From the NCBI RefSeq assembly GCF_022870865.1, contig NZ_CP091508.1:124001-188000 (forward strand): a stretch of DNA of 64,000 nucleotides, given 5' to 3'. Source of the DNA: Uruburuella testudinis (GTDB lineage Bacteria > Pseudomonadota > Gammaproteobacteria > Burkholderiales > Neisseriaceae). This document shows, one piece after another, positions 3,717 through 19,658 of this stretch (positions are counted from its first letter, which is position 1; every line of letters begins with the position of its first letter). The notes beneath the pieces were generated by a model that was given only the letters and a program-made list of their open reading frames with translations, had not been told where the DNA came from and made no database searches. The translations under genes were made by a program, and so were the position numbers.

Positions 3717-3879
3717 AGGGTGTCCTGACCATTCGATTTACGGGTGTATTCTGCCCCTGAAAACGCATCTGCTGCACTAAAACGCCTCGCAAGATGCGCA
3801 GTCTTGCTGCGTTTTTTGCCTGGCATCTGCATTTTCAGGAACAAAAATCCCCTCATCAACGAATGGCCAGAACACCCTA
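3717..3879. repeat. family-1 inverted-terminal-repeat element (MITE-like), copy A
   Basis: A 163-bp element between dinG and the EamA gene. Left end TAGGGTGTCCTGACCATTC, right end the inverse (GAATGGCCAGAACACCCTA), flanked by TA on both sides. The inside is palindromic: CCTGAAAACGCATCTG near the left pairs with CATCTGCATTTTCAGG near the right, and the centre holds a second small hairpin (CGCAAGA / TCTTGCTGCG). No coding capacity. The same sequence recurs near 11.05, 16.68, 18.47 and 19.5 kb. The rest of the 3567-3887 gap holds only single DUS-like words. Confidence 0.85.
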
Positions 3880-3887
3880 GCCCTCTG

Positions 3888-4316
3888 TCAGCGTTTCAAT
3901 GCCAGCGTGAGCACGCCGGCAGCCACCAGGCCGATGCCCAGCCATTCCTGCACGCTCGGGCGCTCGTCGAGAAACACCACCGCCAGCAGCGCCACCAGTA
4001 CCAGGCTGAATTTGTCTACCGGCGCCACTTGCGAGGCATTGCCCAATTGCAGCGCCTTGAAATAGGCCAGCCACGAAGCGCCCGTTGCCAGCCCGGATAA
4101 AATCAGAAATGTCCAATTTTTGCCGCTGAAACTGCCCACGCCCTGCCATTTGCCGGTGTAGCTGAGAAACAGTGCCAAGGCGGCGATAATCACCAATGTG
4201 CGGATAAAAGTGGCAAAATCCGAATCAATGCCCTGCAAACCCACTTTGGCGAAAACCGCCGTCAGCGCGGCAAAAAAGGCCGAAGCCAGCGCCCAGTAAA
4301 ACCATGTTGCAGCCAT
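3888..4316 (-). CDS. single-domain EamA/DMT-family transporter
   Basis: 142 residues with about five hydrophobic helices. It matches one EamA repeat: an N-terminal WFYWALASAFFAALTAVFAK segment, internal FLILSGLATGASWLAYFKAL, and a C-terminal VLVALLAVVFLDERPSVQEW motif typical of the drug/metabolite transporter superfamily. Single-repeat members probably work as dimers in the inner membrane; the substrate cannot be inferred. The start is supported by AAGGAAT upstream of the ATG. A family-1 repeat ends 9 bp beyond the stop codon. Divergent from fhs. Confidence 0.8.
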   Translation of the reverse strand: MAATWFYWALASAFFAALTAVFAKVGLQGIDSDFATFIRTLVIIAALALFLSYTGKWQGVGSFSGKNWTFLILSGLATGASWLAYFKALQLGNASQVAPVDKFSLVLVALLAVVFLDERPSVQEWLGIGLVAAGVLTLALKR

Positions 4317-4415
4317 AATCTATTCCTTGTTTCAGACGGCCTGAAAGCTGAACGCATAAATTGATATAGTCCAAACCGCTGCCGTTTTCGCATGTGTTTG
4401 TCACGCGCTTGCCGT

Positions 4416-4421
4416 TATAAT
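4416..4421 (+). promoter_or_regulatory. -10 element upstream of fhs
   Basis: Consensus TATAAT 36 bp before the fhs ATG, in the context GTTATAATAGCC, which recurs upstream of orn. No convincing -35 hexamer is visible at 17 bp. Confidence 0.45.
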
Positions 4422-4456
4422 AGCCTTTTTGAGCACAACGGAAAACGGATATTCCC

Positions 4457-6133
4457 ATGAGCCATAAAACCGATGCCGAAATCGCCCACGAATCCCCGAT
4501 GCGCTCGATTGGCGAAATCGCGGCCAAACTCGGGCTGCCCGAAGGCAAATACGAGCCTTACGGGCGCTATAAAGCCAAAATCAACCCGCTGAATATTTTT
4601 TCACAGCCCGGAAAACAGGGCAAATTGATTCTGGTTACCGCCATCAACCCCACCCCCGCGGGCGAGGGCAAAACCACGGTCACCATCGGCTTGGCCGATG
4701 CGCTCAACCGCTTGGGCAAAAATGCGGTGATTGCCATGCGCGAGCCGTCGCTCGGCCCGGTGTTCGGCATCAAAGGCGGCGCAGCGGGGGGCGGCTATGC
4801 GCAAGTGTTGCCGATGGAAGACATCAATCTGCACTTTACCGGCGATTTTCACGCCATCGGTGCGGCCAACAACCTGCTGGCAGCCATGCTCGACAACCAC
4901 ATTTATCAGGGCAATGCATTAAACATCGACCCCAAGCGCGTATTGTGGCGCCGCGCTGTCGACATGAACGACCGCCAGTTGCGCAACATCATCAGCGGGC
5001 TGGGTAAGCCCACAGACGGCGTGATGCGCCCCGACGGCTTCGATATTACCGTGGCTTCGGAAGTGATGGCTGTATTCTGCCTCGCCCGCGATTTGGCTGA
5101 TTTGAAAACCCGCCTCGGCAACATGCTGGTGGCCTACACTCAAACCGGCACCCCCGTGTACGCCCGCGATTTGAAGGCACACGGCGCCATGGCCGCGCTG
5201 TTGAAAGATGCCGTCAAGCCCAATCTGGTGCAAACCATCGAAGGCACCCCCGCATTCGTGCACGGCGGCCCGTTTGCCAACATCGCCCACGGCTGCAACT
5301 CGGTGATTGCCACCCGCGCCGCGCTGCATTTGGCTGATTATGCGGTAACCGAAGCCGGCTTCGGTGCCGACTTGGGCGCGGAAAAATTCTGCGACATCAA
5401 GTGCCGTTTGGCAGATTTGCAGCCCGATGCCGCCGTGATCGTGGCCACCGTGCGCGCGCTGAAATACAACGGCGGTGTGGCGCGTGCCGATTTGGGCGCG
5501 GAAAATCTCGAAGCCCTGCAACGCGGCCTGCCCAATTTGTTGAAACACATCGACAACATGAAAAATGTGTTCGGCCTGCCGGTGGTGGTGGCGCTCAACC
5601 GCTTTGTGTCCGACAGCGATGCCGAGCTTGATTTGATTCAGACGGCCTGTGCAGAATACGGTGTCAAAGTAGCGCTCACCGAAGTGTGGGGCAGGGGCGG
5701 TGCAGGCGGCGAAGCATTGGCACGCGAAGTGTTGGAGGTCATTGAGCAGCAGCCCAACCGCTTTGGCTTTGCCTACGAAACCGACAGCGGTGTGCGTGAC
5801 AAAATCCGTGCCGTCGCGCAAAAAGTGTATGGTGCGGCCGATGTGGCGTTCAGCGCCGAAGCCGAAGCCGAAATCGCCGCGTTGGAAAAAAACGGCCTCG
5901 ACAAACTGCCGGTATGCATGGCCAAAACCCAATATTCGCTCAGCGACGATGCCAAGCTTTTGGGCTGCCCCTCAGGCTTTACCATCACCGTGCGCGGCAT
6001 CACCGTATCGGCGGGTGCGGGCTTTATCGTGGCATTGTGCGGCAATATGATGAAAATGCCGGGGCTGCCGAAAGTGCCCGCTGCCGAGCATATCGATGTG
6101 GATGAAAAAGGCGTGATTCACGGATTGTTTTAG
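4457..6133 (+). CDS. fhs: formate--tetrahydrofolate ligase
   Basis: 558 residues, full length for the family. It catalyses ATP-dependent formylation of tetrahydrofolate to 10-formyl-THF in cytoplasmic one-carbon metabolism. The ATP-binding loop is TPAGEGKTT (66-74). Also family-typical are EPSLGPVFGIKGGAAGGGYAQ just after it, the FHAIGAANNLLAA stretch, and GTPAFVHGGPFANIAHGCNS in the middle. Monocistronic, preceded by a -10 element and followed by a family-2 repeat and a DUS-pair terminator. Confidence 0.97.
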   Translation: MSHKTDAEIAHESPMRSIGEIAAKLGLPEGKYEPYGRYKAKINPLNIFSQPGKQGKLILVTAINPTPAGEGKTTVTIGLADALNRLGKNAVIAMREPSLGPVFGIKGGAAGGGYAQVLPMEDINLHFTGDFHAIGAANNLLAAMLDNHIYQGNALNIDPKRVLWRRAVDMNDRQLRNIISGLGKPTDGVMRPDGFDITVASEVMAVFCLARDLADLKTRLGNMLVAYTQTGTPVYARDLKAHGAMAALLKDAVKPNLVQTIEGTPAFVHGGPFANIAHGCNSVIATRAALHLADYAVTEAGFGADLGAEKFCDIKCRLADLQPDAAVIVATVRALKYNGGVARADLGAENLEALQRGLPNLLKHIDNMKNVFGLPVVVALNRFVSDSDAELDLIQTACAEYGVKVALTEVWGRGGAGGEALAREVLEVIEQQPNRFGFAYETDSGVRDKIRAVAQKVYGAADVAFSAEAEAEIAALEKNGLDKLPVCMAKTQYSLSDDAKLLGCPSGFTITVRGITVSAGAGFIVALCGNMMKMPGLPKVPAAEHIDVDEKGVIHGLF

Positions 6134-18564: not shown

Positions 18565-18569
18565 GAGTT

Positions 18570-19325
18570 TCAGGTGCGCAGTTTCCAACCTGATTTCAAC
18601 ACCGCCAATACCCCTGTGATCAAAACCACGGTAAAGCCGCCGGCCACGGTCAGGGAAAGCCACGGCGAGGTGTCGCTCACGCCGAAAAAGCCGTAGCGGA
18701 AGCCGTCTATCATGTAAAACACCGGGTTCAGATGGCTTAAGCCGCGCCAGAATTCGGGCAGGCTGTTAATCGAGTAAAACACCCCCGATAAAAACGTGAG
18801 CGGCATAATCAAAAAGTTTTGAAAGGCGGCGAGCTGGTCGAATTTTTCTGCCACGATGCCCGCCAGCAGCCCTAATGTGGCCATGATGGTGCAGCCGAGC
18901 AGGGCGAAAGCGGCAATCCACAAAACATTGTGCGGCAGCGGCAGGCCGAACCAGGCCGTGGCGGCCAGCACCCCCGCGCCTACCAGCAGCCCGCGCACCA
19001 CGGCCGCGGCTACATAGGCGGAGAAAAAGGCGCTTACCGATAAGGGCGGCAGCAGAATAAACACCAGATTGCCGGTAATGCGCGACTGAATCAGGCTGGA
19101 AGAGGTGTTGGCAAAAGCATTTTGGGTCATGCTCATCATTGCCAGGCCGGGAATCAGAAAGGCGTTATAAGGCACATCGGGCAGGGCTTCCACCGATTTG
19201 CCCACGGCATGTGAAAAAATCAGCTGATACAGCAGCGCGGTAATCATCGGTGCGGCCAGCGTTTGAAAGCCGACCTTCCAAAAACGCAGGATTTCTTTTT
19301 TAAATAAGGTGTAAAAACCTGTCAT
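18570..19325 (-). CDS. ABC-2 type transporter permease
   Basis: 251 residues with six predicted membrane spans. It begins MTGFYTLFKKEILRFWKVGF, typical of YadH/DrrB-type permeases, and carries the ABC-2 signature region SINSLPEFWRGLSHLNPVFY. It pairs with the ATP-binding protein encoded just upstream on the same strand. Together they form an exporter of unknown substrate. AAAGGA precedes the ATG. A family-2 and a family-1 repeat occupy the 330 bp between the two genes, which is unusual for a pair that is normally adjacent. Confidence 0.9.
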   Translation of the reverse strand: MTGFYTLFKKEILRFWKVGFQTLAAPMITALLYQLIFSHAVGKSVEALPDVPYNAFLIPGLAMMSMTQNAFANTSSSLIQSRITGNLVFILLPPLSVSAFFSAYVAAAVVRGLLVGAGVLAATAWFGLPLPHNVLWIAAFALLGCTIMATLGLLAGIVAEKFDQLAAFQNFLIMPLTFLSGVFYSINSLPEFWRGLSHLNPVFYMIDGFRYGFFGVSDTSPWLSLTVAGGFTVVLITGVLAVLKSGWKLRT

Positions 19326-19381
19326 GGCGGGTTCCTTTGGTGCGGTGTGCGGCCGCTTTGTTTAGGGTATGGTTTGCAGTA

Positions 19382-19473
19382 ATACCCCCTTCATAAAAGT
19401 CATCGAAGCCGTATTCGTTGTTTGTATTGTCTTCGGCTCGCCGCCTGGTTTGCTGACTTTGATGAATGGGTAT
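19382..19473. repeat. family-2 element, copy 4
   Basis: Left end ATACCCCCTTCATAAAAGTC, right end TGCTGACTTTGATGAATGGGTAT. The interior TTGTCTTCGGCTCGCCGCC is shared with the copy at 45.05 kb. Confidence 0.65.
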
Positions 19474-19495
19474 GAATGATTATTTCAGACGGCCT

Positions 19496-19658
19496 TATGC
19501 GACTGATTATGTGTTTATAAGAGACTTTTTTGCCCCTGAAAACGCATCTGCTGCGTTAAAAAGCCTCACAAGATGTCCAATCTTGCTGCGTTTTTTGCCT
19601 TGCATCTGCACTTTTATCACAAAAAATCTGAGTCATTCTGAATGGTCAGGATACCCTA
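19496..19658. repeat. family-1 element, copy E
   Basis: The right end (GAATGGTCAGGATACCCTA) is intact and supplies the TAG stop of the ABC ATPase gene. The left end is degraded. The internal CCCCTGAAAACGCATCTGCT and CAATCTTGCTGCGTTTTTTG are conserved. Confidence 0.8.

Follow-up and report, generated by a model that had tools for sequence, protein, structure and literature searches.

Introduction

The insertion sequence (IS) IS5 of Escherichia coli is reported to use the target Py-T-A-Pu, within which CTAG is the commonest word (15/24), followed by CTAA and TTAG; the consulted part of the source (PMC5493358) describes no stop-codon bias for it. The IS427-group entries consulted carry 2-bp repeats, one entry having 4 (PMC3281130, in excerpt). 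Among miniature inverted-repeat transposable elements (MITEs), MITEAba12 is thought, from shared ends, to be moved by the DDE transposase of the resident ISAba12 (PMC6382973, in excerpt), and the Correia elements (CREE) are short Neisseria MITEs with more than 120 copies (PMC10969869, in excerpt). This study investigated a 164-bp palindromic MITE that recurs in a stretch of 64,000 nucleotides (nt) from the single-contig, 2.95-Mb genome of Uruburuella testudinis (the window). The initial annotation had noted that the in-frame TAG stop codons of an orn-like gene, the first M16 peptidase gene and an ABC transporter ATPase gene are the first three bases of this element, and this proved exact.

The window family resembles E. 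coli IS5 in its Py-T-A-Pu target with CTAG commonest, but its duplication is 2 bp, against the 4 bp reported for IS5. As with MITEAba12, a MITE is paired with a DDE-transposase IS through shared ends; MITEAba12 differs in its 9-bp duplication and in having no nucleotide trend at its target, according to the same excerpt. Correia elements are also short and numerous, and they target TA. The Correia family was nevertheless rejected as the identity of the window element: the Correia end (TATAGTGGATTAAC...) had no match in the window within two mismatches, and its weak similarity to the MITE consensus (score 10) was reached by 22 of 500 shuffles. Among the literature matches listed (titles and the starts of abstracts), no paper concerned this MITE family, and the matches listed for insertion at stop codons or CTAG held no description of such stop landing; the consulted parts of PMC3119063, PMC9208149 and PMC11677980 contain no stop-codon targeting.

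We consider it probable (roughly 0.85) that the copies belong to a non-autonomous MITE family, that an IS5-family transposase of the IS427 type moves them in trans, and that its targeting of CTAG and CTAA makes stop codons safe landing sites. The family would be new but its kind is known, and the pattern is real and largely explained. It offers a countable case in which a transposon's short target word, rare in genes yet allowed at stops, turns stops into safe landing sites, and it warns annotators that element ends can be genuine stop codons.

Structure and abundance of the element

The element runs 164 bp from TA to TA, each TA being followed inward by GGGTGTCCTGAC, so that both ends start GGG; it carries no transposase gene and is too short to encode one. 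Matches to the 19-bp end with at most three mismatches numbered seven in the window and 0 in 100 shuffles. Genome-wide, the strict end pattern CTAGGGTRTYCTG was found 232 times (120 forward, 112 reverse), compared with 0 for the reversed-pattern control. The spacing of inward-facing end pairs in the sampled DNA peaked at 163-165 bp (71 pairs, 56 at exactly 164 bp). Median identity to the consensus among 95 full-length copies was 93% (range 74% to 98%), so the spread of the family is not brand new. Array junctions were frequent, a TA being common to a neighbour in 36 of the 95 copies.

Target site and TA duplication

The target was examined in an element-centred sample (435 kb around element matches) and in an evenly spaced 400-kb sample that the first partly overlaps. 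Nearly all of the 256 ends in the element-centred sample retain the TA; 210 of them have C just outside and 36 have T. We reconstructed the empty sites of 59 isolated full-length copies, assuming TA, although one or both terminal TAs were mutated in 12 of the 59 and some of these copies have flanks resembling a worn neighbouring end. The reconstructed words were CTAG in 28, CTAA/TTAG in 26 and others in 5, so that 54/59 were of the YTAR type listed. This result upheld the proposal of the initial annotation that insertion prefers TAG-like targets with duplication of TA, as did an IS5-family partner with near-identical ends.

A 4-bp duplication of the kind reported for E. coli IS5 was rejected; the TAA that it predicts was seen in 0/15 CTAA and 0/11 TTAG sites, and 19 of the 26 asymmetric targets had TAG at both ends. 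The target duplication is TA only, 2 bp. Two copies at stops (2397891 and 2852532) are followed on the opposite side by TAA, which is what insertion into a TAA stop would produce.

Placement by chance at intergenic TA dinucleotides agrees with the retention of TA at nearly all ends. However, it predicts 1.7 of 44 clusters at stops against the 7 observed (P 0.0015), and free intergenic CTAG sites in the even sample (44) are far rarer than TTAA (447), ATAA (1117) or ATAT (447). Chance placement is refuted because the target counts favour CTAG and CTAA/TTAG, and we regard its probability as close to nil.

Frequency of the element at stop codons

Gene calls were made with a simple hexamer-model caller and are not an annotation. 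When the distance of each end to the nearest called stop was tabulated in the element-centred sample, the peak lay at 0. Of the 256 ends, 21 were exactly at a stop, whereas no other single distance below 161 held more than three; six ends at distance 162 probably lie behind another element in an array. Grouped into insertion clusters, these ends gave 115, with 21 exactly at a stop and 2 inside genes. In the even sample, 7 of 45 clusters coincided exactly with a stop, 37 were intergenic and 1 was in a gene. About one-sixth of MITE landing sites thus fall exactly on a stop codon. The earlier argument that three stops among five copies could hardly be chance stands as regards enrichment, but three in five overstates the rate (21/115 and 7/45). 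The window lies somewhat above the sampled rate: given 7/45, at least three of six at a stop has P ~0.05.

The word CTAG occurred 25 times in the ~307 kb of called genes of the even sample (2 at element ends) and 78 times in the ~93 kb between genes (33 at element ends), making it about 10 times rarer per kb inside genes. It formed 7 of 320 stops, and 6 of these 7 were occupied by an element, whereas other TAG stops were occupied in 0 of 20 cases; one additional occupied stop reads TTAA. Seventeen of the 19 CTAG stops in the element-centred sample were occupied. In 400 kb of an element-free genome (G023), CTAG was found 46 times in genes, 81 times between genes and at 4 stops of 356 genes. About 1% of stops are thus CTAG even without the element, and nearly all of those sampled in U. 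testudinis carry a copy. Extrapolation from the 7/320 called genes in 400 kb gives about 50 natural 3'-end replacements in the genome, which could be used to examine the effect of a long 3' hairpin on bacterial mRNA.

Reading phase and orthologues at occupied stops

The initial annotation had offered a second possibility, that inserted element ends became the functional stops. If insertion near gene ends were random and the TAG of the end became a new stop, three reading phases would be expected, one of them giving a TGA ten bases into the element. The G of each TAG does belong to the element, and orn (shorter by 1 to 13 residues than 11 of its 13 orthologues), 852169 and 2397891 end before their orthologues. 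The results revealed, however, that of 22 element ends lying at a gene's end or within it, 21 were in one phase (21 at distance 0, 1 at -10; P ~1e-9), as were 6 of 6 in the closest genome searched (G002).

Orthologues were sought for the 18 of the 21 exact cases that scored at least 55; 346045, 1314626 and 2664296 gave no row, and 15 were readable. For 12 of these 15 genes, at least one orthologue ended at the identical last residue with no element at its stop. Such element-free orthologues were found for a PhnA-like gene (6/6), murA (8/12), a UbiB-like gene (7/7), an Lrp-like gene (6/7) and an ABC ATPase gene (998432; 6/6); the names murA, UbiB-like, Lrp-like and PhnA-like are our presumed identities, read from the sequences themselves. 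The phase and orthologue findings led us to reject the creation of new stops by random insertion as a general rule, and we judge it very improbable. For the most part, then, insertion did not make the stops anew.

Empty CTAG stops were seen directly in two cases only. Where U. testudinis reads GGGC-TAG-element at 2509727, the stop in the relative G001 is an unoccupied GGGCTAG. At the Lrp-like gene, the G001 sequence is GATTTGGGCTAGCG, as expected of an empty site. It had also been argued earlier that orthologues with the same TAG and no element would mean that insertion simply targeted an existing TA. This was found for the window ABC ATPase, for which G002 has TAG after the identical residue without an element; elsewhere the same-position stops of orthologues were mostly TGA or TAA. 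Two further ABC ATPase orthologues (L222 in G035 and L223 in G021) end at CTAGGGTGGG, one codon before the window gene; this sequence may be an ordinary CTAG stop or what is left of an element end. The comparison was less favourable for orn, the stop of which falls after the same residue in 2 of 13 orthologues and 0 of 16 named loci, with a tail varying by up to 13 residues; the case for a pre-existing orn stop is weak. The G002 M16 protein also ends in PSH, although in the alignment, where the tail is variable, the two stops are 7 residues apart. At 1311128, G002 has an element end at the same stop, which is either a shared insertion or a repeat hit.

G002 contains 100 ends of its own sequence variant TAGGGYDTYCTGA, mostly TAGGGCTTCCTGA. 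The part of G002 that was retrieved holds 73 unique ends; 6 were at distance 0 from a stop and 0 at -10, and elements occupied 4 of 5 CTAG stops and 2 of 3 TTAG stops. Two of the six stop cases (L328 and L343) show a short end only, for which no partner end can be seen; they may be chance matches or remnants. A U. testudinis match was found for five of the six G002 genes; four of the five end at the same residue (TGA or TAA) with no element at the stop, and the fifth is 4 residues shorter at its end. Elsewhere, 5 of 6 genomes shared the end residue of the L305 gene, and the single genome compared for L328 ended one residue earlier.

A partner insertion sequence and a proposed mechanism

An 875-bp IS in G002 encodes a 260-amino-acid IS5-family transposase (NF033580, 251.7 bits against a cut-off of 110, 7.7e-75; Pfam DUF4096 and DDE_Tnp_1); its inverted repeats, which lie inside the TA, are perfect over 26 bp. 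This IS directly abuts a MITE, CTAG being common to both. Its end TAGGGCTTCCTGACAATT agrees with the adjacent MITE in 17 of 18 bases on one side and in the first 15 on the other, and with the window end in 15 of 18. A different IS5-type element of ~820 bp is present in G021 (11 copies in the loci read, L160-L175), with ends TAGGGTCTGTCGACATTCAAG; CTAG stands at most ends of the 11 loci, with one CTAA and one CTGG. Among 20 ends of this element in 10 loci, one (L167) has a 121-codon open frame running into its TAG. An Acinetobacter copy annotated as ISAba31 family reads CTAGGGTGTGTTGAC...CCCTAA. The target habit looks general to IS5/IS427-type elements, since the G021 element lies mostly at CTAG and the ISAba31-family flanks agree. 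IS427-type IS5 elements (NF033580, the G002 IS and ISAba31-like plasmid elements) share with the window family the target CTAG/CTAA and ends in TAGGG..., and they encode an IS5-family DDE transposase in ~820-875 bp; the window element differs in having no transposase gene and an unlike interior. The label IS427 rests on the 2-bp duplication and the size, the matched model being named just "IS5 family". IS1301 is another IS427-type IS5-family element, with the target AYTAG; a literature search for this target gave unrelated papers.

On the basis of these likenesses, we propose that an IS5-family (IS427-type) transposase would mobilise the MITE in trans. When the TA of a stop codon, either TAG or TAA, is the target, the product would be C-TA-[GGG...CCC]-TA-R; the duplicated TA and the leading G of the element together restore a TAG. 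Insertions at stops, leaving TAG at the same codon and the protein unchanged, would be close to neutral and accumulate, whereas insertions elsewhere within genes would break them and be lost by purifying selection. Over time, most C-TAG stops would come to carry a copy.

Several observations weigh against this mechanism or limit its reach. CTAG is not absent inside genes, as the counts of 25 in the even sample and 46 in the element-free G023 attest. Because an occupied stop reads C-TAG whatever its earlier codon, some occupied C-TAG stops may be former CTAA, and part of the 6/7 could be explained in this way; 17 free CTAA stops remain in the even sample. The supply of targets predicts 2.0 to 3.2 of 44 non-genic clusters at stops against the 7 observed (P 0.003 to 0.04), so the excess perhaps does not come fully from target supply, which accounts for part of it, perhaps most; loss of copies lying between promoters and genes could add to it. 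Among 50 same-position stops of element-free orthologues, TAG was found in 6 (CTAG in 2) and a target-like word (CTAG, CTAA or TTAG) in 7, so that for most genes the stop word before insertion is an inference. Three of the 15 genes (852169, 2397891 and, by alignment, M16) lack any orthologue with the same end residue, and all six other genomes with a counterpart of the G002 gene L315 end it 1 to 12 residues earlier. The gene at 1419415 reads into a copy and, after four further residues, stops at a TGA inside it; here insertion did make the stop, as the random-insertion alternative would have it. Finally, the sole U. testudinis copy of the partner IS type that was found is degenerate (874 bp, with the same inner repeat), in a search that did not extend to other transposase families.

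The hairpin and a possible role at 3' ends

The MITE consensus folds as a single long hairpin (-75.5 kcal/mol; reverse strand -85.9). Its core hairpin, GCAAGAT...ATCTTGC, is kept in 92 of the 95 full-length copies, 63 of which have TGCGTTTTTT behind the core; in the consensus a T-run follows the conserved core stem, and some window copies have terminator-like sites on both strands. These features would suit an alternative in which selection for a 3' hairpin or intrinsic terminator, rather than targeting, keeps the element at stops, and the element is somewhat over-represented between convergent genes: such gaps hold 30 of the 105 clusters whose context is known, compared with 44 of 249 gaps in the even sample. 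Nevertheless, any palindromic MITE shows a full-length hairpin, and terminator-like sites in the window (30) were about as frequent as in shuffles (26.0, sd 4.7). Copies downstream of genes showed no orientation preference (28 forward, 25 reverse), those at stops were 4 forward and 11 reverse, and 14 of the 21 copies at stops precede a same-strand gene, so that neither orientation nor neighbour direction gave clear support for a terminator bias. Selection alone would also leave the contrast between C-TAG (6/7) and other TAG stops (0/20) unexplained. We consider this alternative unlikely, and a functional 3' hairpin possible.

The targeting mechanism has a bolder extension, in which CTAR targeting, TA duplication and the leading G would make this a stop-codon-homing MITE. 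Stops would then be near-saturated safe harbours, the 3' ends of some dozens of genes per genome would be rewritten (TAA to TAG, with a 164-nt hairpin), and hosts may rely on the effects on termination or mRNA decay. We regard this extension as speculative and rather doubtful.

The inner core (about positions 49-120, including the GCAAGAT...ATCTTGC hairpin) matches repeats in other Neisseria genomes that lack matching ends (L073 in G035; places in G021, G015 and others). Judging from these core matches, it looks as if a hairpin module were common to different MITE families. Rfam 15 gave no match above the gathering score in window positions 3000-20000.

Copies and host genes in the window

The five copies and the solo end listed in the initial annotation are all present, with starts corrected as in Table 1. 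The copies at 3716 and 18471 lie 11 and 8 nt, respectively, beyond the TGA stop of a gene pointing toward the copy. For the orn-like gene, the nearest named matches come from Neisseria.

Table 1. Coordinates of the MITE copies and of the genes that end in them (window positions; ORF, open reading frame)
Feature	Position	Strand	Evidence
MITE copy, 164 bp, two intact ends, flanks C-TA..TA-G	3716..3879	+	end matches
orn-like gene, RNase_T exonuclease (PF00929), ends in the element's TAG	10501..11049	+	ORF, profile match
MITE copy, 164 bp; TAG 11047-11049 is the orn stop; right-hand TA reads TG	11047..11210	+	end matches, ORF
M16 peptidase gene, ends in the element's TAG	15311..16678	+	ORF
MITE copy, 164 bp; first M16 gene stops at TAG 16676-16678	16676..16839	+	end matches, ORF
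Solo element end, CTAG common with the preceding copy (array junction)	16838..16856	+	end match
Shortened MITE copy, 94 bp; right end TAAGGTGTCC	18471..18564	-	end matches
MITE copy, 163 bp, degenerate left end; minus-strand TAG 19658-19656 is the ABC ATPase stop	19496..19658	-	end matches, ORF
ABC transporter ATPase gene, ends in the element's TAG	19656..20552	-	ORF
Mini-form, 39 bp, both ends TAGGGCATCCTGAT ... GTGAGGATACCTTG	53205..53243	+	end matches

The element at 53205 is likewise present, although its description as a minimal remnant does not fit: it has both ends, and its 39-bp spacing recurs in G002, where eight end pairs lie at exactly this spacing. Six of these were read (L300, L308, L312, L330, L335 and L340); they have similar middles of 12-13 bp that differ from that of the window mini-form, and five of the six have YTAR flanks. 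The mini-form would, if mobile, be a very short transposing unit.

Paired AGGCCGTCTGAA uptake-type words were also observed in the window as inverted repeats at 6224, 10392, 13314, 13773, 46840 and 59010, which we take to be the usual Neisseria terminator arrangement.

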